Shown here piece after piece: positions 6,868 through 17,858 of a DNA stretch of 59,034 nt. A program made the translations under genes and the position numbers. Origin of the DNA: an uncultured Roseburia sp. (lineage in GTDB: Bacteria; Bacillota; Clostridia; Lachnospirales; Lachnospiraceae); NCBI GenBank assembly GCA_947062675.1, contig CAMSQM010000014.1, forward strand, positions 1-59,034. The letters are read 5' to 3'. Under the pieces are notes generated by a model. It searched no databases and was not told the DNA's origin. It worked only from the letters and a program-made list of their open reading frames with translations. Each line of letters starts with the position of its first letter. Position 1 is the stretch's first letter.

Positions 6868-7140
6868 TCATATAATAATACAGACCATTCCGCCGTTGCT
6901 GTCGTTGACAATCTTCTGCATCGTGTCCTGCAGCTTCATCTGGCATTCATCGTCCATCATCGCAATCTTGCTGCGGATACCGTCCTCCATCAGCTCACCG
7001 ATGGATTTTCCGAAAATGTTGGTCTCCCAGGCCCCCTCCTCGCTCTGCTGCCCTTCTTTGATATAGGAAATCAGATCATTCGCCTGCTCCTCGCTCCCGA
7101 CAATCGGGGCAATCTCCGTTTCGATATTCGCCTTAATCAT
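6868..7140 (-). CDS. spoIVA: spoIVA, 3' part (C-terminal 90 codons), separated from its 5' part by the element
   Basis: These 90 residues (starting MIKANIETEIAPIVG, ending GGMVCIII) match the C-terminal end of SpoIVA, the ATPase that polymerises on the forespore and anchors the spore coat. From memory, B. subtilis SpoIVA has PSIHMIKVDVESEFAPIIG here and ends GGLIAIIL. The frame is open upstream into the shared core TGTATG at 7142-7147, where codons for Ile-His precede the Met. The 5' part lies at 17858-16647 and ends at the same Ser-Ile-His. The ATG overlaps the recombinase stop (ATGA), so this piece might be made by coupling even before excision. Joined, the gene would have 494 codons, against 492 in B. 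subtilis. Confidence 0.95.
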   Translation of the reverse strand: MIKANIETEIAPIVGSEEQANDLISYIKEGQQSEEGAWETNIFGKSIGELMEDGIRSKIAMMDDECQMKLQDTMQKIVNDSNGGMVCIII

Positions 7141-7168
7141 GTGTATGATCCGGCACAGACAGAAGCTT
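7122..7168. other. Left attachment site of the spoIVA element
   Basis: The junction between the spoIVA 3' part and the element. The core TGTATG is at 7142-7147. The inner arm GGCACAGACAGAAGCTT (7152-7168) is the inverted partner of the inner arm at the right end (14 of 17 positions). The axis between the two arms falls between 7142 and 7143, which predicts a TG crossover dinucleotide (CA on the coding strand). Confidence 0.82.
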
Positions 7169-8786
7169 CACTTCCACGTTTGCGTTTTACCAGGAAGAGC
7201 CTGGCTTTATCCTCCGTTTTTAAATATACGTATAACTGCACCACATTTTTCCGATCCGTTTTTTTCACCTCGATCCGGTCCAGAATTGCATCGACCATTC
7301 CGTCGCTGATTCCTTCTTCAAAGTCAAGCTCACTGGAAATCAGTTCCCGGAATGTACTTATCATACCGGCTATCCCCTTATTCTTCTCCCTGTCCTCCTC
7401 CAGCTGTCTTATTTTATCTTCCGCCTCCTCAATCCCGGCGTTGAATAAATTATTTCTATATTCAAATTCATCATCAGAAATCCTGCCCTGGATGCTCAGC
7501 TCTAACAGCCTGTCCTTTTTCTTCATCAGATCGTTAATGTTCAGTCTGTATTGTGCCAGCTCTCTCTCTATCGTCGACCGGCCCGCGGCATCCGCATATA
7601 TTTTTATTAAATCACGGATAATATCCGCTTTTTGGGCAATCATATCTCCGCAGATCTTCTTCATGGCCTCATCGGACTCCGTCGTATAAACTGCCGGCGA
7701 ATCACAGGCGCTTTTTCCTTTTTCCGTGTAAACCTTACACTGCCACGCTTCCCGCACACCGCTTTTGTACCGGTATATCTTATGGTGATAAGATGTCCCA
7801 TGGTTCATACATATGATTTTTCCGCTATATCTGTACCGGTTATTATAGGCACCTGCGGCGGCCGCTTCCTTTATGGCGGTTCCTCTTTTATTCAGAATCC
7901 TGTTTGCCCGCTCCCATAATTCCTCCGATACAATCGGCGGAACATTTTCTTTATCTTCATACACCACCCATTCTCCGGGTTCTATATATTTTCTGGCGTT
8001 ATGCCTGTAATCATATTTCTGTGTCTTATTTCCACAGTAGTAACCTTTATATTTCGGATTGGAAATAATATTTCTGATCGTGCTGGCAGCCAGATCATTG
8101 TTTCTGGAATTTTTGATCCCCTTTTCTCCCAAAACCCTCGATATTACCCGCATACCAAAATGCCGGTTTACATACATATCAAAGATTTCCCTTATAATCT
8201 CCGCTTCTTCTTCCACAATCACAAGTTTTCCGTTATCTTTTTTATAACCCCAGATCTTATTATTGCCCAGAACCGAACCTTTTTCTATGGCCCGCCTGAA
8301 CCCGAACCGCACCCTCTCTGAGATCTTGCGCACCTCATCCTGCGCAATGCTGCTCATAATCGTCAGCCGCAGCTCACTGTCCGGCAGCAGCGTGTTAATA
8401 TTGTCTGACTGAAACAAAACGCCCACGCCGCAGGTCAGCAGCTGCTGTGTATACTGAATGCTGTCTACTGTATTTCTTGAAAAACGGGAGATTTCTTTTG
8501 TTATGACAAAATCAAATTTTCCCGATTTCGCGTCTTCAATCATCGTCAGGAAGCTTTCTCTCTTTTTTACGCTCGTCGCGCTCAGCCCCTCGTCTATGTA
8601 TCCTTCCACAAATTTCCAGTTGGAATTCTGCTTTATCATATCAGAATAGTATTTTATCTGTGCCGACAGGGAATGTAACTGTTCATCTTTTTCAGTGGAT
8701 ACCCTGGCATAGTAAGTAACTCTCATCGGAATATCATAAATTGATTTTCCGCTGTTCAGCTCCCTTCTGATACTATACAAATCCAT
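7137..8786 (-). CDS. Large serine recombinase, predicted to excise the spoIVA element
   Basis: A 549-residue large serine recombinase. The resolvase domain (about residues 22-165) has the catalytic serine at residue 30 in YARVSTEKDEQ, with SRFSRNTVD further on. A recombinase domain follows (about 175-290; KGSVLGNNKIWGY, ISNPKYKGYY), then a zinc-ribbon region (about 340-395; Cys in IICMNHG, WQCKVY and SACDSP) and a coiled coil (about 420-475). Its last codons read through the att core: the stop TGA overlaps the ATG of the spoIVA 3' part. Position, family and orientation mirror SpoIVCA at the skin element. When it is expressed is not visible; a sigma-E promoter for it was looked for and not found. 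Confidence 0.93.
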   Translation of the reverse strand: MDLYSIRRELNSGKSIYDIPMRVTYYARVSTEKDEQLHSLSAQIKYYSDMIKQNSNWKFVEGYIDEGLSATSVKKRESFLTMIEDAKSGKFDFVITKEISRFSRNTVDSIQYTQQLLTCGVGVLFQSDNINTLLPDSELRLTIMSSIAQDEVRKISERVRFGFRRAIEKGSVLGNNKIWGYKKDNGKLVIVEEEAEIIREIFDMYVNRHFGMRVISRVLGEKGIKNSRNNDLAASTIRNIISNPKYKGYYCGNKTQKYDYRHNARKYIEPGEWVVYEDKENVPPIVSEELWERANRILNKRGTAIKEAAAAGAYNNRYRYSGKIICMNHGTSYHHKIYRYKSGVREAWQCKVYTEKGKSACDSPAVYTTESDEAMKKICGDMIAQKADIIRDLIKIYADAAGRSTIERELAQYRLNINDLMKKKDRLLELSIQGRISDDEFEYRNNLFNAGIEEAEDKIRQLEEDREKNKGIAGMISTFRELISSELDFEEGISDGMVDAILDRIEVKKTDRKNVVQLYVYLKTEDKARLFLVKRKRGSEASVCAGSYT

Positions 8787-8819
8787 ACGGCCAGCTGCTC
8801 CCTCTCCTTTCTTTTTGCT

Positions 8820-8960
8820 TCAATGATATTTTATAATCATTTTCTTTGCCTTCTGATATAATTCCTTAGAAATGATTCCCTTATTGTACAGCTGCTCATT
8901 AATATGCAGCTTTACCTGAATTTCGTACTCCTCCATAATATGTTTCTCTTCAATTGTCAC
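8820..8960 (-). CDS. 46-residue small protein upstream of the recombinase
   Basis: A GTG at 8960 opens a 46-codon frame (MTIEEKHIMEEYEIQ then VKLHINEQLYNKGIISKELY), ending 33 bases before the recombinase start. GGAGGG precedes the GTG; an internal ATG at 8936 would give 38 residues. The stretch LYNKGIISKELYQKAKKMI resembles the short SHOCT helical motif, though I cannot confirm the family. Its place, directly before the recombinase and apparently co-transcribed, makes it a candidate accessory protein or recombination directionality factor. That role is inference. Confidence 0.6.
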   Translation of the reverse strand: MTIEEKHIMEEYEIQVKLHINEQLYNKGIISKELYQKAKKMIIKYH

Positions 8961-8990
8961 TCCTGCCCTCCGCCCCTTTTTCTGTTTTTT

Positions 8991-9020
8991 ACATTTTATT
9001 CAGCTTTCAGAATAAAATGT
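8991..9020. repeat. AT-rich inverted repeat upstream of the recombinase module
   Basis: ACATTTTATTC (8991-9001) and GAATAAAATGT (9010-9020) form a perfect 11-bp inverted repeat with an 8-base spacer, between the end of eetB and the small gene. No U-tract follows on the minus strand, so an operator controlling the recombinase module is as likely as a terminator. Confidence 0.5.
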
Positions 9021-9026
9021 CTGTCG

Positions 9027-9524
9027 TTACCATATCACAATTTTACGGATACGCTTTGTGACCGCCGCGCCGAGCACGCCGATCGCAACTCCCGACAGAC
9101 TTCCCGCCAGAAGCAGCGCCGGCAGGTAATAGACAAGGCTGGGTGTATCTAACACCAGGATCGCCATGAGAATCTGTCCGACATTATGAAATATGCCGCC
9201 CAGCACACTGACGCCGGTAAGTGTGAGTCGTTTTGTCCGCTTCGCAGCGACCATCACCAGAAGGCTCATGATACCCCCGGCAAGACTGTAGAGCATGGCC
9301 GCCATGCTGCCGAACGTAAAGCCGGTCAGCACAATCCGGATCATGGACAGCAGAAATGCGTCTCCGTCATTTAAAGTATACAGCGCCACTATAATCACCA
9401 GATTCGCCAGTCCCAGTTTCGCTCCGGGAATACCTGAATGAACCGGAATTAAAGATTCCACATAAGAAAAAATAAACGCCAGCGCAATTAAAAGTCCCAG
9501 ATATGCAATTTTTCTTGTCTTCAT
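9027..9524 (-). CDS. eetB: EetB-like Gx transporter family membrane protein (heptaprenyl diphosphate synthase component I family)
   Basis: A 165-residue, very hydrophobic protein with about five membrane segments (starts MKTRKIAYLGLLIALAF; PGAKLGLANLVIIVALYTL is typical of the family). The family is called Gx transporter or heptaprenyl diphosphate synthase component I. In the Listeria extracellular electron transfer locus the equivalent gene is eetB, needed for electron export though its biochemical role is unclear. It follows eetA by 12 bases on the same strand. The symbol rests on the conserved neighbourhood (eetA, fmnB, pplA, ndh2) as much as on the sequence. Confidence 0.82.
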   Translation of the reverse strand: MKTRKIAYLGLLIALAFIFSYVESLIPVHSGIPGAKLGLANLVIIVALYTLNDGDAFLLSMIRIVLTGFTFGSMAAMLYSLAGGIMSLLVMVAAKRTKRLTLTGVSVLGGIFHNVGQILMAILVLDTPSLVYYLPALLLAGSLSGVAIGVLGAAVTKRIRKIVIW

Positions 9525-9536
9525 GTTTTCCGCTCT

Positions 9537-9923
9537 CTAACTGGTCATGGAATCCACACCGGATTCCTCTCCGTTTTCAATTTCCACTACCACCTTATTG
9601 GGCAGACAGACTATGGTCTCTCTCTGTCTGCTGATCGCGCGGTGATTCACACAGATTCCATCGGGGCAGGACGCCTCGGTAATATCTGCTCTGCCGTCCT
9701 TTATCACCAGCACATTATAGGACCCGTCCGGCAGTTCCACTTTCTCCGTGACATCTTCATCCAGCGGGAAACGCCCGTACACACTCTCTCCCGCCGTGAC
9801 AACTGCCACCGGCTCTTTCGTATTCGCACGCTGAAAGACATTGAATCCAATATAAAGCACAGCCGCGGCTGCCAGAATAACCACAATCAAAATTATATCA
9901 TTTTTCCGCGCAATTTTTTCCAT
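9537..9923 (-). CDS. eetA: EetA-like NusG domain II membrane-anchored protein
   Basis: A 128-residue protein with one N-terminal membrane segment (about residues 8-28; IILIVVILAAAAVLYI) and an extracytoplasmic domain with DGRADITEASCPDGICV and IVCLPNKVVVEI, characteristic of the NusG domain II family. The start at 9923 has GGGAG six bases upstream; an ATG five codons earlier is less well placed. NusG-II proteins of this size next to a Gx transporter and ApbE are EetA in Gram-positive extracellular electron transfer loci. It sits between fmnB and eetB in a tight row. Confidence 0.82.
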   Translation of the reverse strand: MEKIARKNDIILIVVILAAAAVLYIGFNVFQRANTKEPVAVVTAGESVYGRFPLDEDVTEKVELPDGSYNVLVIKDGRADITEASCPDGICVNHRAISRQRETIVCLPNKVVVEIENGEESGVDSMTS

Positions 9924-9955
9924 CTGATTCTCCCACATTCCATTCTTTTCCGGTT

Positions 9956-11008
9956 TTATTCCGCCAGAAATGCCTCAAAATTTTCCGAGTACCGGATGCT
10001 TCCGTCTTCCATGATCCACATGGCTTCCACACCTTCCAGTCCGTTCACAAATGCAAGGCCCTCCTCATACGTCATATTGTACACTGATGTGGACAGGGCG
10101 TCGGCCGCACCGGAATCTTCCGCGATGACAGAGACGGCACTAAAATAGTCTGCCGGCATCAGCGTATCCGGGTCAATAATGTGGCAGTAGCGCTCATCGT
10201 CCACGATATAATATCTCTGGTAGTTCCCGCTCGTCACCACACAGGCGTCCGCCATATCCACCTTCCTGACATAAGGCTCCTCACTGCCGGTATCCGGATT
10301 CTGAATTCCAAGTCTCCACTTTGTCCCGTCGATCCGGCCTCCAACCGCACAGACATTTCCGCCCACGCTTATGAGCACATGCTCCATTCCAATCTCTTTT
10401 GCATACTCCGCAACCCGCTGCACCGCATATCCCTTGCCGATGCTTCCCACATCCAAAGACATTTCCGGGTCGCTCAGGTAAACCGTGGACGCCTCCTCAT
10501 CAATTATGACTTTTGTGATATCCGTGTGTCCGGCGGCCGCGAGAAGCTCTTCCATCGGCGGCAGTGCGGCCTCTGCCGGATTATTATTTCCCGCCTCCCG
10601 ATACTCATGCCAGATAGAAAGCACGCTTCCCATGGCGATATTTACCTGTCCGTTCGTGCGCTCATACATCTCTTTGCTAAACTGCAGCAGGCGGATAATC
10701 TCCATGTCAGTCTCAACCGGTCCGACTCCCGCATTGTCATTGATTGTCCTGATATTATTGATTCCCTCATATTCGTGATAAATATCATAAAGTTCATTGT
10801 AACAGACAAGCTTTTCCTTCAGCAGCTCAATCTGTTCCGTAAACGCCTCCCGGCTCGTTCCATATCCTGTAATCTCTGTCCTGGTGTCAAATACATTCAG
10901 AAATGTCGCCGTATAGCGCGTCTGCTCCTTCGGCGCGCCATGCGCCGCAGAAACAGCGAGCAGCAGCACCGCGGCTGCAGGAATTAACGCTTTCTTCACC
11001 CGATTCAT
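9956..11008 (-). CDS. fmnB: FAD:protein FMN transferase (ApbE/FmnB), exported
   Basis: ApbE enzymes transfer FMN from FAD to a Thr or Ser of extracytoplasmic proteins; FmnB in the Listeria system flavinylates PplA. The protein (350 residues from the chosen start) has a signal segment (KKALIPAAAVLLLAVSAAHG), then ApbE hallmarks: DVGSIGKGYAVQRVAEYA, ISVGGNVCAVGG, VTSGNYQRYY and HIIDPDTLMPA. The ATG at 11008 is preceded by AGAGGGGAAAAGT. Its likely substrate is the neighbouring two-repeat lipoprotein. The intergenic segment before it (11042-11132) is strongly structured and may set its expression below that of pplA. Confidence 0.92.
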   Translation of the reverse strand: MNRVKKALIPAAAVLLLAVSAAHGAPKEQTRYTATFLNVFDTRTEITGYGTSREAFTEQIELLKEKLVCYNELYDIYHEYEGINNIRTINDNAGVGPVETDMEIIRLLQFSKEMYERTNGQVNIAMGSVLSIWHEYREAGNNNPAEAALPPMEELLAAAGHTDITKVIIDEEASTVYLSDPEMSLDVGSIGKGYAVQRVAEYAKEIGMEHVLISVGGNVCAVGGRIDGTKWRLGIQNPDTGSEEPYVRKVDMADACVVTSGNYQRYYIVDDERYCHIIDPDTLMPADYFSAVSVIAEDSGAADALSTSVYNMTYEEGLAFVNGLEGVEAMWIMEDGSIRYSENFEAFLAE

Positions 11009-11041
11009 ACTTTTCCCCTCTGAAATGTCTGGCCGCCGCAC

Positions 11042-11114
11042 TTCCCCTGTTTATAAAACAGGAATTATTTTTCTGCTTTATAAACAGGGGAGTGCGCGTA
11101 AACGCACACTCCCC
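11042..11114 (-). other. Two overlapping hairpins between pplA and fmnB
   Basis: CCCCTGTTTATAAA (11044-11057) pairs perfectly with TTTATAAACAGGGG (11077-11090). GGGGAGTGCG (11087-11096) pairs with CGCACACTCCCC (11103-11114) with one bulge. They share the GGGG at 11087-11090, so only one can form fully. On the minus strand the second forms first, just after the pplA stop. It may be a partial terminator or RNA-end stabiliser. Confidence 0.6.
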
Positions 11115-11132
11115 GTTGTCTGTTCTTTTTAC

Positions 11133-12338
11133 TTATTTCGCACTGTCCGCCGCCTTTGTGATTACAGAATTGAAATCTGTAACGTGGATCGTAACAGAAG
11201 CCGCGAGATCCGCGTCAGAAGGAACTCCCTCCGTCACCGCCGTACCGTTTACCTCGTCAGCCGTTTTACCGATCGCATACTGCGCATAAGCGGCAGCCTG
11301 CTCATTCCACTCTTTTCCGATGGAGGAGGCAGCCTTCATGCCATAGCCGGCACCGATCACATTTTTGGAATCAACGGCAGCCGTAAGATCCGTCGTAATC
11401 TTTCCGGTCGCATCAAACTTTACATTTGCCTGTACCGCATCAATCTGTGCGCTTGTGATAACGCCGTCCGCATTTACAGTCAGCGCGGAAACCGTGGTAT
11501 AAGCCTGTGCGACACCCTCCGCGTCCGCGGCTGCGTCCGTGGAGTCTGCAATGCTGGTAACAACACCGACACCCAGTTTATCACCGGCCTGCGCGCCCAT
11601 CTCGGTCGCATTAGCAACTGCCTGCGCAACGACCTCCTGCAAACCGCCGATGTGCATCGTACATCCTGCCGCAAGATCTGCGTCAGAAGGAACTCCCTCT
11701 GTCACCGCAATCCCCATTACCTCGTCTGCCGTCCTGCCCACACAGTACTCCGCGAACGCGGCAGCCTGCTCGTTCCAGTCTTTGCCGATGGAAGAAGCCT
11801 TGCTCATTCCATAGCTGGTACCCAGCTCATTCTTACTGGGAACCTCTGCCCCGGTATCTGTTTTGAGCGTTCCGTCTGTCCCGAAATTTATAACCGTCTG
11901 CGCGCAGTCAATCACACACGCCACGATCTTTCCTTCCGCGTCCACGGTAACCGCCGCGATCATCGCGTCTGTCTGCGCAATACCCTCTGCGTCCGCAGAT
12001 GCATCCGCAGAACTTTCCACACTTGTCGCGATGGCGAGACCTGTCTTTAATCCGCCCGGAGTCGCCTCAGTGCTGCCGTCCACCATCTCCGTCCCGGCAC
12101 CTGCCGGCGTGCCGTCTTCCACCTGCTCTGAGCCCGTATCTTCCGGCATGCCCGTATCTTCCGGCATGCCGGCATCTGCTCCATCGCTTCCTGTCTGTGC
12201 ACCGTCTTCCGGCTTTGTTTCATCCTCCGCCGCACCGCCCACTGCCTGCGCGACATCTTCCGGCTTCCTGTTGGTACATCCCGCAAGTGCGGACACCGTA
12301 AGCGCCATGCCTAGTAACAACGCAATTTTCTTTTTCAT
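11133..12338 (-). CDS. pplA: PplA-like lipoprotein with two flavin-bearing repeats
   Basis: A 401-residue lipoprotein: signal peptide with lipobox (LTVSALAGC), then an Asp/Glu/Pro-rich linker with the short repeat GMPEDT, then two similar domains of about 130 residues (about 100-235 and 255-395). Each domain contains SSIGK(D/E)WNEQAAA and TEGVPSDADLAA followed two or three residues later by a Thr, which I take to be the flavinylation site by analogy with Listeria PplA. This surface lipoprotein would pass electrons from the quinone pool to outside acceptors. The start at 12338 follows AGGAGGAAAGATTT. The symbol is by analogy. Confidence 0.85.
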   Translation of the reverse strand: MKKKIALLLGMALTVSALAGCTNRKPEDVAQAVGGAAEDETKPEDGAQTGSDGADAGMPEDTGMPEDTGSEQVEDGTPAGAGTEMVDGSTEATPGGLKTGLAIATSVESSADASADAEGIAQTDAMIAAVTVDAEGKIVACVIDCAQTVINFGTDGTLKTDTGAEVPSKNELGTSYGMSKASSIGKDWNEQAAAFAEYCVGRTADEVMGIAVTEGVPSDADLAAGCTMHIGGLQEVVAQAVANATEMGAQAGDKLGVGVVTSIADSTDAAADAEGVAQAYTTVSALTVNADGVITSAQIDAVQANVKFDATGKITTDLTAAVDSKNVIGAGYGMKAASSIGKEWNEQAAAYAQYAIGKTADEVNGTAVTEGVPSDADLAASVTIHVTDFNSVITKAADSAK

Positions 12339-12377
12339 AAATCTTTCCTCCTGCATTTCTTATGTATCGCTGATATT

Positions 12378-13373
12378 TTATATATTTAACCGGTCATCCG
12401 ACCGGAAAATACCTGTTTTTCCAGGCCCGCAATAAGACTTATCCAGCAACTCTTTTAAAATTTCTGCCTTCTGCCGCGGAAAACGGAGTGCTTCCAGCGC
12501 CTCCGACGCTTTTTCGTAATAGCGTTTCGCCGTCTGATGTGTGAAATCCACGCCTCCGCTCTTTTTTACCTGATCCAAAAGCTCTTTTGCCGGAAGCTCT
12601 CCCGCCTCCGCACGCTTTTTCAGCTCAGGCTTATTGTGAAAGGTATGAATGACAGGAAGTGTGATGACACCCTGCTCATAATCCGACTGCACGCTTTTCC
12701 CTGCTGACTTCGCGTCACATTCATAATCAATACAATCATCTGTAAGCTGAAAAATGATTCCTGTATATCTGCCAAGACGGCGGTACAGGCGCAGCCTCTT
12801 TTCATCCTGCTCGCAGACCACGGCTCCCGCAAAATAGGACGCCTCAAACAGTGCGGCGGTCTTCCTGTTGATAATGCCCAGATAACAGAACATTGACAGA
12901 TTATAGTTAAAATTATTCTCGCTCTGCCTGAGCTCACCCATACAGATCTGCTGCACATAATCAGATGCGTCCAGATCCTTATATTTGTCCGTATCTTCTA
13001 CCTGCGCAAGTTCTTTCAGCGCGGCCGACAGCAGATAATCCCCGCAGATCACGGCCCTGCGCTTTCCGAACTTCTTCTGGAGTGTCTCCACGCCCCTGCG
13101 CATAGCTGCATCGTCCATTATATCATCATGAACCAGCGTGGCCAGGTGAAGGAGTTCTATCGCCGCCGCAAAAACAACTGCATCGTTATGGATACTGCCC
13201 TTCTCATCCATCGCACATGCGAGCACCGCCCTCGCACGGACAAACTTTCCGTGCGTGAAAGTCAGGTGTGATGTATAGGTACGGATCAAAAGCGGCGCCG
13301 ACAGTAATACGCGGTCAACTTCAGCTCTGGTTTTTTCAAACGCGGTTCCAAAATTCAGGGACAACTCAGTCAT
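12378..13373 (-). CDS. dmkB: Polyprenyl diphosphate synthase (DmkB-like)
   Basis: A 331-residue trans-prenyltransferase that would make the long isoprenoid tail of (demethyl)menaquinone. The first aspartate-rich motif is LVHDDIMDDAAMRRG (about residue 80) and the second QLTDDCIDYE (about residue 213). Its start overlaps the end of ndh2 by eight bases, and pplA follows 39 bases later, so it sits within the electron-transfer operon. In Listeria the equivalent gene in this locus is dmkB. The Gx-family EetB may or may not act with it. Confidence 0.9.
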   Translation of the reverse strand: MTELSLNFGTAFEKTRAEVDRVLLSAPLLIRTYTSHLTFTHGKFVRARAVLACAMDEKGSIHNDAVVFAAAIELLHLATLVHDDIMDDAAMRRGVETLQKKFGKRRAVICGDYLLSAALKELAQVEDTDKYKDLDASDYVQQICMGELRQSENNFNYNLSMFCYLGIINRKTAALFEASYFAGAVVCEQDEKRLRLYRRLGRYTGIIFQLTDDCIDYECDAKSAGKSVQSDYEQGVITLPVIHTFHNKPELKKRAEAGELPAKELLDQVKKSGGVDFTHQTAKRYYEKASEALEALRFPRQKAEILKELLDKSYCGPGKTGIFRSDDRLNI

Positions 13374-15368
13374 TGTAGAGATACCACCTCTTTATCCATT
13401 TAATGTTTTTCCAGCGCTTCTTTAAGAACGGTCCTGCGTAGTAATCCAGTCCGATCGTGTATCCTGCGCCGATGAGTAGTGCGACACTTGCAAAAATCAT
13501 CCACATGCCGTTTAAGTACAGTCCCGTCGTGCTTAAGAACATAAACTGAAGAATGATGGATACCGCCGCGCAGGGGAACGTAAACAGTCCGCCCAGCAGT
13601 CCCAGTCCGATCGCCAGCTCCAGCAGCACGATCGCGATCTGCATAAACATCTGCATACCGTCACTCGAGAGAACCATGGTATCCACAGACCAGTTCACAA
13701 ACGGAATATTCAGCTTAAACGCATAATCTGCGAGGGTGGAGCCTGCAAGTTCCTTTCCGCTGACAAAGATTGTCTCAAATAATCCGAAATCCCAGTCCAG
13801 AAGAAGCGTGCCCGCGCCTGCCGCCGCATCTGCCACAACACCGGTTGCGCCCGCCGCCGCATCTGCCGCCGCTCCGGTTGCGCCCGCCGCCGCGTCCACC
13901 GACGGCGTTATGCCGAAATATCCCGCGATAATAGAATTATACCACGCATTTGCGCCGCCAAAAAATCCCTGCAGCATAGGCTTCTCAAACCAGCCTTCCA
14001 CAATCTTCATCACGGCCTCGAATATCCACACCGCGCCCAGCCATACGCGCAGCGGTACAAGAAGAAAGCTCGGCGTCCGGTTCGAAAAATGTCCCCCCAC
14101 AAAGCTTCTGCCGTTGCGGATCGTAAAAATCTCATGCTTCAGATAGCTGAATACTTTCGTCCAGCCCATAACCTGAATAAAATAAATAATATTGATAAAA
14201 TGTTTTGCAAACATGGCAAAGAAAGAAGCCAGATTCATCTGGTGTTCTGCCATACCGCCTCTCGCGGTTCCCCAGCGTCCTCCCACGCATACCATAATGC
14301 CGTGGAACTTCGGACTGTACTCCTGCATGCTGCCCTTTTTTGTGACAGACACAGCGATATTGTTCGCCGCCGTCCCTGCGCTGTGCTCCGCATTCTCGAC
14401 CATCTGCGGAACCGGACGCTCCTCACCCGGAACCGTATAGAACATGTTATCGCCGATCACAAACACATTTTCGTGATCCACACTTCTTAAATAAGAGTCA
14501 ACCTCAATTCTTCCTCTTCCCGCACTCCGGACCTCTTTTGCCGCATCGGCGGTAATCTCCGCGCTCTCAATCCCTGCGGTCCAGATCACGGTGCCTGCGG
14601 CGTGCTCGCTCACCGTATCTTTCTGCTTCAGTCTGATGAAATCCTCACCCACGCCGACCACGCTGGCGTTCATCACAACCTCCACGCCCATCTTCGTGAG
14701 GCGGCGTTCCACCCTGCCGGACAGCTTCTCCGGAAGAACCGGCACCGGACGCGGCAGTCCGTCCACATCCACAAGCTTTACGTCCTCCCGTCTGATATGG
14801 AATCGCTTACAGAGGATCGGCACATATTCTGCGAGCTCTCCGATCATCTCAACCCCGGTAAAACCGGCGCCTACCACATAGAAGGTCAGCAGCCTGCGTC
14901 TCTTCTCCACGTCCGGCTCGTCCGCTGCCAGACGGAAACAGTCGTGAATGCGGTCCCGCAGCCTCACGGCATCGTCGTAAGACCACAGCGTGTAACTGTA
15001 CTCCTCCGCTCCCTCCACGCCGAAATAGGTCGGCCTGGATCCCGCTGCCAGAACCAGATAATCATATGTATACTCACCATTTTCTCCGGTAATCCTGTTT
15101 TCCTCAAAATGAATCTTTGTTATCGTATCCAGAACAACATTGACCCTGCGTCCCGCAAAAATCTGGTCAAGATTCATTTTGACGCTCTCCTCGCCCACAC
15201 GGCACGCTGCAACCTCATGCAGCTCCGTCAGCATCGTGTGGTAAGGATGCCTGTCAATGATGGTAATCTGAGTCTCACCTGCCGCTCCCTGCTTCCGGAG
15301 CTTTTCTCGAGTTTTTTGGTCGCCAGAACCCCCGCGTAACCGGCGCCAATCACTACGATGTTTGTCAT
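13366..15368 (-). CDS. ndh2: Type II NADH dehydrogenase Ndh2 with membrane tail; apparent one-base frameshift near the start
   Basis: Ndh2 passes electrons from NADH to a quinone dedicated to extracellular electron transfer. The ATG at 15368 follows AAGGAGAAAGTC and reads MTNIVVIGAGYAGVLATKKL, the FAD-binding Rossmann motif. The frame then shifts: the rest of the enzyme (IDRHPYHTMLTELHEVA, YVVGAGFTGVEMIGELAEY, FVIGDNMFY) is in another frame. Adding one A to the A4 run (15302-15305) or the A6 run (15312-15317) restores it. An alternative upstream start in the downstream frame would lack the GxGxxG site. From about residue 430 comes a DoxX-like multi-pass tail with an Ala/Gly repeat (AAAGATG units). 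The frameshift may be a sequencing error, a mutation or a phase-variable tract. Confidence 0.85.
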
Positions 15369-15495
15369 GACTTTCTCCTTTTTCGTACAAAATTTTTTTC
15401 TGTAAGTCTGTCCCGGTCCTTGAATGTGTATCGCTCATTATTCTATCATACAAACCGGTTAAATGCCAGTAGTTTTTTAATTGCTTCCAGGATTC

Positions 15496-15524
15496 TTGCA
15501 TTTTTGCCGATAGAATGTTAAAAT
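15496..15524 (+). promoter_or_regulatory. Promoter of dmkA in the divergent region with ndh2
   Basis: TTGCAT (15496-15501), 17 bases, TAAAAT (15519-15524), 71 bases before the dmkA start. On the other strand an extended -10 (TGATAGAAT, about 15450) could serve ndh2. The divergent region 15369-15595 shows no other clear signal. Confidence 0.65.
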
Positions 15525-15595
15525 TCACTGACAGATATTTCAAAACCTCACAACGACAGATAAAGAGAACGACAGATAAAGAAAAAGGAGCTTTT

Positions 15596-16507
15596 ATGAT
15601 TCAGAAATTTCTTAAGTATGTGGAGATTATGACCAAGATTACCAGTGTATTTCCTTTCCTGATGACGCTGGCATTTCTATTTCATGCGGGATACGCCGTC
15701 AATGTCCGGCTGACGCTTGTATTTTTTGCATCCATGTTTATTTTTGATCTGACGACCACCGCCATCAACAATTACGTCGACAGCAGGGATTATCCGGAAA
15801 TGCTCCCGCTGCCCCGGCGCGCTGCCCTGATGATTATTTATGTCATGTTCGCAGTCAGCACGGGCCTGGGGATTTACCTTGCTCTCTGCACCGGAATCGT
15901 GGTGCTGGTCACCGGCATTCTCTGCTTTTTGTGCGGCGTGTGCTACACCTACGGACCGGTTCCCATTTCAAGGCTGCCGCTCGGGGAAGTGTTCTCCGGT
16001 GTTTTTCAGGGTACCCTTATTCCTTTTCTGCTTCTGTACATCAATCTGCCGGAGGGAACACTCCTCACCCTCACGCTCAGCGCGGAAGAAATCGGTCTCT
16101 CTCTTAAGGTATGGCCGCTTCTCACCATGCTGCTCTTATGCGTGATCCCGACCTGCCTGACGGCAAACATTATGTTTGCCAACAACATCTGTGATGTGGA
16201 CGCAGACGTAAAAGTGAACCGTTTTACCCTGCCCTATTTCCTTGGGTTAAAACATTCCCTGACATTGTATGCCGCCATTTATTATACCGCATATCTGGCC
16301 CCCTGTATTATGGTAATACTTGGTATGCTGCACCCAGCCTCCCTGCTTTGTCTTCTGACATTTCCGGTTATCCGGAAGAATATCCGCATTTTCCGGAAAG
16401 AGCAGAAAAAGCCCGACACATTCCTCACCGCCATCCGCAACTATATTATTCTGATGAGCGCATACTGCGTCTCCATCTTCCTCGGCGGTATTTTTGTAAA
16501 ATTTTAA
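15596..16507 (+). CDS. dmkA: UbiA-family prenyltransferase (DmkA/MenA-like)
   Basis: A 303-residue integral membrane prenyltransferase with about eight or nine membrane segments. It has the two aspartate-rich loops of the UbiA family: NNYVDSRDYPE (about residue 59) and NNICDVDADVKVNR (about residue 195). It would attach the polyprenyl chain to 1,4-dihydroxy-2-naphthoate, giving the demethylmenaquinone used by Ndh2. The start at 15596 has AAGGAG five bases upstream. It is the only cargo gene on the plus strand, divergent from ndh2. A GC-rich hairpin (CAGGTGCCC at 16547-16555 with GGGCGCCTG at 16565-16573) beyond the stop may end its transcript. Confidence 0.88.
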   Translation: MIQKFLKYVEIMTKITSVFPFLMTLAFLFHAGYAVNVRLTLVFFASMFIFDLTTTAINNYVDSRDYPEMLPLPRRAALMIIYVMFAVSTGLGIYLALCTGIVVLVTGILCFLCGVCYTYGPVPISRLPLGEVFSGVFQGTLIPFLLLYINLPEGTLLTLTLSAEEIGLSLKVWPLLTMLLLCVIPTCLTANIMFANNICDVDADVKVNRFTLPYFLGLKHSLTLYAAIYYTAYLAPCIMVILGMLHPASLLCLLTFPVIRKNIRIFRKEQKKPDTFLTAIRNYIILMSAYCVSIFLGGIFVKF

Positions 16508-16529
16508 ACTGCTTTCATGGCCGGTGCCT

Positions 16530-17858
16530 TCAAAACCTGTGTGCGTCAGGTGCCCTGCACTCCGGGGCGCCTGCAGTCTGAATTTTAAGCAAATAAAAAA
16601 GGACTATTCCGTCCTTAAATTCAAACTTCTTTTTGTGCCTTTCAATATGTATGGAAGGAGATACCGCTTTCATCTTGACCCCGAATTTATTCCCGTGCCT
16701 GATAAGGACGGGCTCCTCCATTTTGATATCGGACAGTCCCGGACCCACAACACCGTAGCCCTTTACCTGCACTTCCTCAAAGGCATCGGAGACTTTTTCG
16801 TAGGATTCCTTGCGCTCCGCCATCTCACGTATCATGGCAATCAGCTCGTATTCTCCCTGAATCGGCACGCCCGCCAGCTCGCTCATATTCTGGTAATAAT
16901 ATTCTTCCGCGATGTCCATGCGGATTTTCACACATCCCAGCGCGGGATCGAGCTCTTCCACTTTAATTCTGGACACATACTGCTCCGGTGTAAACTGCTG
17001 TGCATACACGTCCTTCGTCTTTTTCATGCCGCCAAGAATATCGGATGCCGTCCTGATAATCTCCGCTTTCATCGGATGTTCCATCTGAAGCATTTCCGCC
17101 CATTTCGGAATGTAAAATTCCACCCGCGCCACCGGAAATTCATAGAGAATGCTCTCCAGAATTTTACAGACATCATCCCTGCGCAGCTGTTCACAGTTGA
17201 CCGGAATTACAGCCGTCTGATATTTTTCCCGCAGCTCCTCTGCCAGGTGCTCCGCCTCCTCCCCGTAGGGCTTCTGGCAATTGAGCACAATCACATAGGG
17301 CTTTCCGATCGCGTTCAGTTCCTGGACCGTCTTCTCCTCGGCGTCCACATAGCCGGCGCGCCCGATCTCCCCGATGGAACCGTCCGTGGTCACCACAATC
17401 CCGATTGTCGCGTGATCCCTGATCACCTTTTCAGTGCCGACCGACGCCGCCTCGACAAATGGAATCTCATAGTCGAACCACGGGGTCTTCACCATCCGTT
17501 TTTCGTTTCCCTCCATGTGCCCGGCGGCTCCGTCCACCATGAATCCAACGCAGTCAATCAGACGCACCTTCACCTTTGTGTCATCTTCCAGCCGGATTTC
17601 CGCCGCATCCTTCGGGATAAATTTCGGCTCCGTCGTCATAATCGTCTTTCCCTGCGCCGACTGCGGCAGTTCATCAATGGTCCGCTCTCTGCTATGTACA
17701 TCTTCCATAAACGGAAGTACCATTAAATCCATAAAACGCTTGATAAATGTGGATTTACCTGTCCGGACCGGACCTACGATTCCAAGATAAATTTCACCGC
17801 CCGTGCGGTTCTGGATATCTTTGTATAAATCAAACTCTTTCTTTGTGCTGCTGTCCAT
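16530..17858 (-). CDS. spoIVA: spoIVA, 5' part (404 codons) with a 38-codon tail read from the element
   Basis: SpoIVA is a mother-cell ATPase that assembles the basement layer of the spore coat around the forespore. Residues 1-404 match SpoIVA: Walker A GPVRTGKST (about residue 29), LPQSAQGKTIMTTEPKF, RLIDCVGF, GIVVTTDGSIG, and MKAVSPSIH at the break. The remaining 38 residues (IERHKKKFEFKDG onward) are encoded by the element and are unrelated to SpoIVA. The last 90 codons are at 7140-6868. The start at 17858 follows AAGGGG, and a sigma-E promoter lies just upstream. Before excision only this truncated protein, lacking the C-terminal region needed for proper coat assembly, could be made. Confidence 0.95.
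   Translation of the reverse strand: MDSSTKKEFDLYKDIQNRTGGEIYLGIVGPVRTGKSTFIKRFMDLMVLPFMEDVHSRERTIDELPQSAQGKTIMTTEPKFIPKDAAEIRLEDDTKVKVRLIDCVGFMVDGAAGHMEGNEKRMVKTPWFDYEIPFVEAASVGTEKVIRDHATIGIVVTTDGSIGEIGRAGYVDAEEKTVQELNAIGKPYVIVLNCQKPYGEEAEHLAEELREKYQTAVIPVNCEQLRRDDVCKILESILYEFPVARVEFYIPKWAEMLQMEHPMKAEIIRTASDILGGMKKTKDVYAQQFTPEQYVSRIKVEELDPALGCVKIRMDIAEEYYYQNMSELAGVPIQGEYELIAMIREMAERKESYEKVSDAFEEVQVKGYGVVGPGLSDIKMEEPVLIRHGNKFGVKMKAVSPSIHIERHKKKFEFKDGIVLFYLLKIQTAGAPECRAPDAHRF
16591..16616 (-). terminator. Possible terminator just inside the right end of the element
   Basis: On the minus strand AAGGAC pairs with GTCCTT (16611-16616 with 16599-16604), followed by a T-rich run (16598-16591). It lies in the direction of spoIVA transcription, about 30 bases inside the element, so it could stop the unspliced spoIVA transcript. 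The stem is short, with three G-C pairs. Confidence 0.5.
16623..16673. other. Right attachment site of the spoIVA element
   Basis: The junction between the spoIVA 5' part and the element. The core TGTATG is at 16648-16653; the inner arm AAACTTCTTTTTGTGCC (16623-16639) is the inverted partner of 7152-7168 (14 of 17). Joined on the excised circle, the arms are separated by 18 bases with the axis in the core's first TG. Confidence 0.82.

Follow-up and report, generated by a model that had tools for sequence, protein, structure and literature searches.

Intervening elements that interrupt sporulation genes have been described for sigK, spsM, spoVFB, spoVR, gerE, and yabG, according to the available excerpts of three publications (PMC5595907, PMC5025042, PMC10747680). 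The DNA studied here (hereafter the window, meaning the whole 59,034-nt stretch of contig CAMSQM010000014.1) originates from an uncultured Roseburia sp. (GCA_947062675.1, a draft genome of 87 contigs, 94.9% complete) and features a further target, the gene spoIVA, which is split at codon 404 by an intervening element of 9,506 bp. SpoIVA represents the platform of the spore coat and is made early under sigma-E. As judged from its sequence, the segment is very probably a sporulation-gene intervening element, which its own serine recombinase would excise as a circle, thus restoring a 494-codon spoIVA in the sporulating cell.

As proposed in the original prediction, the N-terminal 404 and C-terminal 90 codons of SpoIVA are located on one strand, 9.5 kb apart, and TGTATG is present at both 7142-7147 and 16648-16653; all coordinates hold. 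Joining the parts in script at CATACA (coding strand) reproduced the predicted Pro-Ser-Ile-His-Met-Ile-Lys (PSIHMIK) within one open frame of 494 codons and left over 9,506 bp. Without excision, the 5' frame reads on into the element, encoding 442 aa. A second intact spoIVA, the possibility raised against the original prediction from the outset, was not found in a search of the draft genome. Uninterrupted spoIVA genes with an empty site, which had been suggested as a check, are present in congeners. Among 62 same-genus genomes including that of the window, 53 had a spoIVA match, and the window genome was the only one of these with a spoIVA split by an element. For 51 of the 52 other matched congeners, the spoIVA match began within the first nine residues and extended to residue 494 (counting G052, with two abutting pieces inside one open frame), the 52nd (G047) being represented by residues 330-494 only. 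The joined SpoIVA of the window aligned over its full length with the uninterrupted congeners, the best match being G045 with 90% identity, and the empty site read SPSIHM(I)(K/R)AN at the joint position in the seven loci read.

In comparison to G045, dN/dS values of 0.061 and 0.010 were obtained for the 5' and 3' parts, respectively, at a dS above 1 and hence near saturation. Considering the columns invariant in seven uninterrupted congeners, the window differs in none of 77 in the 3' part and in 6 of 265 in the 5' part. On these substitution patterns, both spoIVA parts are under strong purifying selection, and the low ratios and the kept invariant columns make a long-abandoned gene unlikely; a recent insertion could look alike. 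That the insertion simply killed spoIVA and left the strain non-sporulating is considered very improbable, even though no excision was seen and one carrier, G472, has a broken 5' part: apart from the selection pattern, the host kept other sporulation genes, and the same codon together with an intact att dyad recurs across many lineages. The neighboring genes gpr and spoIIP scored above their family cut-offs in the window, SpoIIID was found in the host genome, and two SigE/SigK-type factors matched the SigK model below its cut-off. No insertion was seen in sigK of the host, since the SigK-type factor on contig C45 matched positions 24-226 in one frame.

Counting the window, both joints were mappable in 26 genomes. 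The His404 codon is the joint in 24 of these, and in G121 and G197 the joint is located approximately 24 bases beyond that codon. The CA of the His404 codon was the sole dinucleotide identical on both sides in all 24 joints of the His404 class; the runner-up, AT three bases further, was identical in 21 of them. The attP consensus obtained from the joined element arms, tGTTTGttcCa.ACaATACATATtata.G.AaCAAAaaGAAG, is a dyad centered exactly between the C and the A of this dinucleotide, with complementarity at 0.673 of paired positions compared to 0.14-0.39 at ten other centers. For the attP of the window itself, 16 of 25 paired positions are complementary about this center, the other 9,470 centers in the stretch reaching a maximum of 15. 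Accordingly, a short common core was found at both joints inside dyad att sites. Serine recombinases exchange strands at the central dinucleotide of dyad sites, and following this rule, CA at 7142-7143 and 16648-16649 is the predicted exchange point.

To evaluate the prevalence of split spoIVA genes, further genomes were surveyed. A first survey revealed two genomes (G107 and G121) with spoIVA split at the same place and a related recombinase between the parts, and a survey of the SpoIVA C-domain in 392 genomes of the order added at least four more splits (G176, G233, G197, and G324); among seven short-frame rows checked out of 273 C-domain matches, three (G272, G361, and G326) were contig-end cuts. 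From a recombinase-alignment scan of named genomes, the best 80 of 537 related loci were taken, to which all counts out of 80 below refer, and a SpoIVA part was found beside the recombinase in 25 of them. The carriers include Pseudoflavonifractor, Flavonifractor, Dysosmobacter, Anaerovorax, Anaerovirgula, and several metagenome-assembled genomes (MAGs) of Bacilli. Split spoIVA genes with related recombinases range from Lachnospiraceae via Oscillospiraceae and Anaerovirgula to MAGs of Bacilli; cultured carriers are Flavonifractor An10 and An306, Pseudoflavonifractor capillosus An827, and Anaerovirgula multivorans. In nearly 30 other genomes, spoIVA is cut inside the same 30 bases. Wherever both parts reside on one contig (12 of 12 cases, namely 11 and the window), they are arranged on the same strand in N-to-C order, 3.5-119 kb apart. 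Thirty further genomes in which a SpoIVA part adjoins the recombinase were searched whole; no intact copy was detected in 29, three of which yielded just one spoIVA piece. The full-length congener match, the attP dyad, and the same joint in other genomes place the split beyond chance. In one of the spoIVA loci examined (L070:2535-5424), the recombinase adjoins and faces the spoIVA 5' part, unlike in the others.

An assembly artefact, for which the draft state of the window genome in 87 contigs might speak, is hardly credible, because the same anatomy appeared in independent assemblies, including those of cultured strains. Moreover, 8 contigs of the protein database carry a recombinase that is 99% identical and has an unchanged C-terminus, for which a single faulty assembly cannot account. 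Alternatively, the two SpoIVA parts might be made as separate cooperating proteins without excision, as the start codon of the 3' part, an ATG, shares bases with the stop codon of the recombinase (ATGA, 7137-7140), and the recombinase frames of G121 and Anaerovirgula run into the SpoIVA C domain. However, the Met at this overlap also occurs in the seven uninterrupted congeners read and is thus not an adaptation, and conserved att sites and a recombinase would be left unexplained, which makes two separate proteins exceedingly unlikely.

SpoIVA is required for coat building, as established for B. subtilis, and a spore-forming carrier should therefore rebuild the gene. Anaerovirgula multivorans falls into this category: its only spoIVA is split, with the parts 109 kb apart and a joint at His404, and it is a spore-forming species according to the title of its species description (as given in the reference list of PMC5244501). 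This species provides the strongest indirect evidence that excision works.

The large serine recombinase that the original prediction had placed next to the spoIVA 3' part was confirmed, and the gene extends further than assumed, since its frame crosses the 3' joint and takes its last codon and stop from spoIVA; read on the circle, it encodes 562 aa. The element thus brings its own site-specific serine recombinase. A quick tree was computed for 86 recombinases, with several long branches unsure; in this tree, the spoIVA label (27 rows) required 4 changes compared to 23.2 after shuffling, and none of 500 shuffles was as low. The window recombinase appeared as sister to that of the Lachnospiraceae MAG L068. 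The two share 78% identity in the recombinase, compared to 63% in the SpoIVA 5' part and 82% in the 3' part, which suggests lateral transfer. Few members of the host family carry the element (1 of 397 genomes), and no other recombinase at E ≤ 1e-120 was detected in these 397 genomes when the three best candidates were scored per genome. The phage and plasmid collections contained no close carrier, the best recombinase identity being 42% (a phage record). A viral contig of 124 kb carries a 54%-identical recombinase plus the partner open reading frame (ORF) described below. A second serine recombinase, 37% identical, is encoded in the window's genome on contig C17 of G000 (L043:763-2673).

Upstream of the recombinase, the element encodes a 46-aa ORF, for which a profile was built on 15 small ORFs of the spoIVA class. 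The profile matched 27 of 28 spoIVA loci, corresponding to 26 of 27 distinct ones (L034 and L085 being one record), and recovered the ORF in 12 of 13 non-seed spoIVA loci; the match in G121 was weak (E 0.006), and none was obtained for the spoIVA locus L075. The ORF precedes the recombinase by no more than 150 bases in 20 of 27 cases and is at least 1.8 kb away in seven. Beyond spoIVA, it was found at two of two sigG, three of four carboxypeptidase, and 8 of 28 unassigned loci, and the profile search gave no match in 18 sigK and three spoVD loci. Its predicted fold is a two-helix hairpin (mean pLDDT 94.9) resembling SHOCT_2, below cut-off only. Among the 120 homologues listed of 323, none bears a function-telling name; one is labelled YqgQ. 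Position, size, and co-occurrence suggest that the ORF is likely a recombination directionality factor. Between eetB and this ORF (8991-9020), an inverted repeat with perfectly matching 11-bp arms, ACATTTTATTC/GAATAAAATGT, and a loop of 8 bases was read by eye; it may be a terminator or an operator.

Under the preferred reading, that of an intervening element in spoIVA, the recombinase, likely aided by the 46-residue partner, would recombine the two joints at the CA of codon His404, the segment would leave as a circle, and the 494-codon spoIVA would be restored in the sporulating cell. The forespore would keep the element, which would thus be inherited by the cells arising from germinated spores. 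Excision by this recombinase, sporulation timing, mother-cell location, and forespore retention are all predicted. As SpoIVA is made early under sigma-E, the element would need to be gone before coat assembly begins, a timing tighter than that of skin. The reading, as first put forward for this locus, is backed by the single split copy, the empty sites, selection, att geometry, and recurrence.

Several points weigh against it. An excision product was not seen, and dS is near saturation in the comparison that yielded the selection values. G487 possesses a near-complete spoIVA besides an extra C part, and the spoIVA 5' part of G472 shows a stop and a frame break. Furthermore, several carriers are incomplete MAGs, in which an intact copy may have been missed, and among the carrier isolates, spore formation was looked up for Anaerovirgula alone. 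Regarding regulation, strict matching found a sigma-E-like motif upstream of none of 26 recombinases (shuffled mean 0.63; no excess), and a sigma-70-type site is absent from the coding strand at 8700-9100, where the promoter/terminator scan returned one promoter-like site, on the opposite strand, with 1.1 expected. SpoIVCA of B. subtilis needs sigma-E and SpoIIID (excerpt of PMC5025042), a dependence which may come too late for spoIVA. Moreover, the yin element was excised at all time points (excerpt of PMC10747680), indicating that excision need not be developmental. The missing sporulation promoter in both scans and the behavior of yin in C. botulinum would also fit an element that excises without developmental control, its spontaneous or stress-linked loss producing a sporulation-competent minority and the element acting as a switch. 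This alternative appears unlikely, as the targets of the recombinase clan named so far are all sporulation genes (with 28 of 80 loci unassigned), which suits a loss that matters only in sporulation.

Detailed analysis of the 80 loci also revealed these further targets, the sigK loci being counted with an L098 query and the N-terminal parts of non-spoIVA targets lying outside the search. The C-terminal part of SigK directly follows the recombinase in 18 loci, three of them confirmed with NCBIfam. These loci (L091, L093, L095, L097, L098, L100, L101, L104, L105, L106, L108, L110, L111, L113, L117, L120, L125, and L133) are read, from their sequences, as probable skin-like elements in Oscillospiraceae and kin. 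In Bacilli MAGs, the C-terminal part of a D-Ala-D-Ala carboxypeptidase was found in four loci (L134, L136, L137, and L146; one checked) and that of SpoVD in three (L140, L145, and L147; one checked). In two loci (L139:10001-11692 and L123:8983-10680, both checked), the recombinase frame is fused to the last ~25 SigG residues, which may mark elements located at the extreme end of sigG. The target was unassigned in 28 loci. The viral contigs L184, L186, and L194 also match D-Ala-D-Ala carboxypeptidase, and a related recombinase is located immediately after spoIIIAH in L038:6327-9082. In the control list, the six-frame search left B. subtilis below the cut-off for SigK, as would follow from a split of sigK by skin; such splits can hide sporulation genes from surveys.

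Nine genes reside between the joints, namely the recombinase, the 46-aa ORF, and seven electron-transfer genes (Table 1). Phage structural or replication genes were not among these nine, so that the element does not qualify as a prophage. Ndh2, quinone prenyl genes, ApbE, EetA, and EetB occur together as in the flavin-type FLEET locus, and the seven cargo genes are predicted to form a cluster for extracellular electron transfer of the flavin type. The PplA-like protein occupies the right place and is conserved in congeners, and it showed no Pfam domain and no identifying named homologue. A sequence search of the PDB for its identity returned a sole match at E 0.21, which was taken as chance. 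The true ndh2 start is probably near 15320, because congener matches start at residue 72-86. In the congener G046, the same cluster is present in the same order elsewhere in the chromosome, next to guaA (named by eye), and no recombinase match was obtained within the 18 kb read near it. Among 48 same-genus genomes, four had an Ndh2 match at E ≤ 1e-60, and the window genome had a single one. Judging from the G046 location and the Ndh2 counts, the cluster is accessory in the genus and rides on the element here. A tblastn search for the cluster proteins gave no match in the 80 related loci (flanks of up to 10 kb each) or in those of G107 and G121. The cluster, whose Ndh2 is the only such enzyme found in the genome, would be of use during growth, and the chromosome of the mother cell would lose it.

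Table 1. Positions of the split spoIVA gene, its joints, and the genes of the intervening element within the window
Feature	Position	Strand	Basis or remark
spoIVA 3' part, last 90 codons, SpoIVA_C domain, with joint	6868..7147 (codons 7140-6868)	-	PF20439, TIGR02836 402-492
Hybrid att site, 3' joint	7117..7168	-	core repeat 7142-7147; predicted crossover CA 7142-7143
Large serine recombinase, 549 aa	7137..8786	-	PF00239, PF07508, phrog_95 integrase
46-aa ORF, GTG start, recombinase partner, candidate recombination directionality factor	8820..8960	-	family profile, invariant columns, predicted helical hairpin
EetB-like membrane protein (Hpre_diP_synt_I)	9027..9524	-	PF07456, E 8e-38
EetA-like protein (NusG domain II)	9537..9938	-	PF07009, E 8e-30
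ApbE-family flavin transferase	9956..11041	-	PF02424, E 3e-65
PplA-position secreted protein, two repeats	11133..12356	-	cluster place conserved; no Pfam family
Polyprenyl diphosphate synthase (DmkB-like)	12378..13373	-	PF00348
Ndh2-type NADH dehydrogenase, C-terminal extension	13366..15543	-	NDH-2 structures to E 1e-51
UbiA-family 1,4-dihydroxy-2-naphthoate prenyltransferase (DmkA-like), divergent	15515..16507	+	PF01040; PRK13387 and PRK06080.1-4 below cut-off
Hybrid att site, 5' joint	16623..16674	-	core repeat 16648-16653; predicted crossover CA 16648-16649
spoIVA 5' part, codons 1-404, ATPase and middle domains	16648..17858	-	PF09547, PF20438, TIGR02836 positions 1-399

The spoIVA elements of other genomes carry different cargo. 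That of G107 encodes a hybrid sensor kinase and that of G233 an HsdR, and the G121 element (L035:2836-16839) comprises type I restriction genes, a MobC/NikA-like gene, and a pair of OLD-type ATPase and UvrD-type genes, which we take to be Gabija-like. The L068 element, 3.5 kb in size, encodes a 403-aa protein of no known family, and larger relatives of the window element, in L082 and L128, feature a phage-type ribonucleotide reductase and a dUTPase.

It is possible, though somewhat short of probable, that these recombinases form a clan specialized on developmental genes of spore formers (spoIVA above all, as well as sigK, sigG, spoVD, and the D-Ala-D-Ala carboxypeptidase gene). One spoIVA codon would then serve as a docking port for cargo of up to 119 kb, as diverse as electron export, a sensor kinase, restriction/defence, and phage-like DNA, the helical-hairpin partner would time the release, and the mother cell in the case of the window would give up the sole electron-export cluster of its chromosome to make SpoIVA. 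The alignable attP, the single predicted crossover dinucleotide, and the candidate directionality factor make the timing of excision directly testable, and the family of spoIVA elements represents new recombinase-site pairs. The window indicates that such elements can carry a whole respiratory gene cluster, beyond phage and defence genes. Genome surveys of sporulation may score a split spoIVA as broken or missing, though it is likely restorable.

Compared with the described systems, the element resembles skin in sigK (B. subtilis SpoIVCA; C. difficile CD1231 with CD1234), where, according to the excerpt of PMC5025042, a gene split in one frame is restored by excision through a large serine recombinase. 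It differs from skin in its target, the early sigma-E gene spoIVA, in its recombinase subfamily and att site, in not being phage-like, and in a partner ORF without counterpart in the sigK loci of its own clan (0 of 18). A recombination directionality factor has been reported for SPbeta and C. difficile skin. In Bacillus cereus ATCC10987, the sporulation gene gerE is likewise interrupted by an island that is not a prophage, the gin element, which has restriction genes as well as a short core repeat and needs the recombinase GirC and a further factor, GirX; in contrast to the window element, it spans 28.6 kb, harbors three recombinases, and has another target, with no respiratory cargo named in the available part of the source (PMC5595907). 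Yin in yabG of Clostridium botulinum, SPbeta in spsM, and the spoVFB and spoVR elements also split a sporulation gene and can leave it, but are prophages or prophage-like and have other targets (excerpts of PMC10747680, PMC5025042, and PMC4191935).

Like the FLEET locus of Listeria and lactic acid bacteria (excerpt of PMC8837199), the cargo combines ndh2 and apbE with two prenyl/quinone genes, genes similar to those of EetA and EetB, and a protein at the pplA position. Unlike FLEET, the window cluster is the cargo of a recombinase-bearing element in a sporulation gene, its PplA-like protein is without Pfam match, and no ribU-like gene was seen in the element. No report of spoIVA as a target, or of an electron-transfer cluster on such an element, was found among the literature matches listed, which cover few subscription journals. 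Short of a proof of novelty, the comparison places the window element beside skin and gin in its mode of work, with the target gene, the recombinase and att family, the candidate partner, and the respiratory cargo as the traits that appear to be new.

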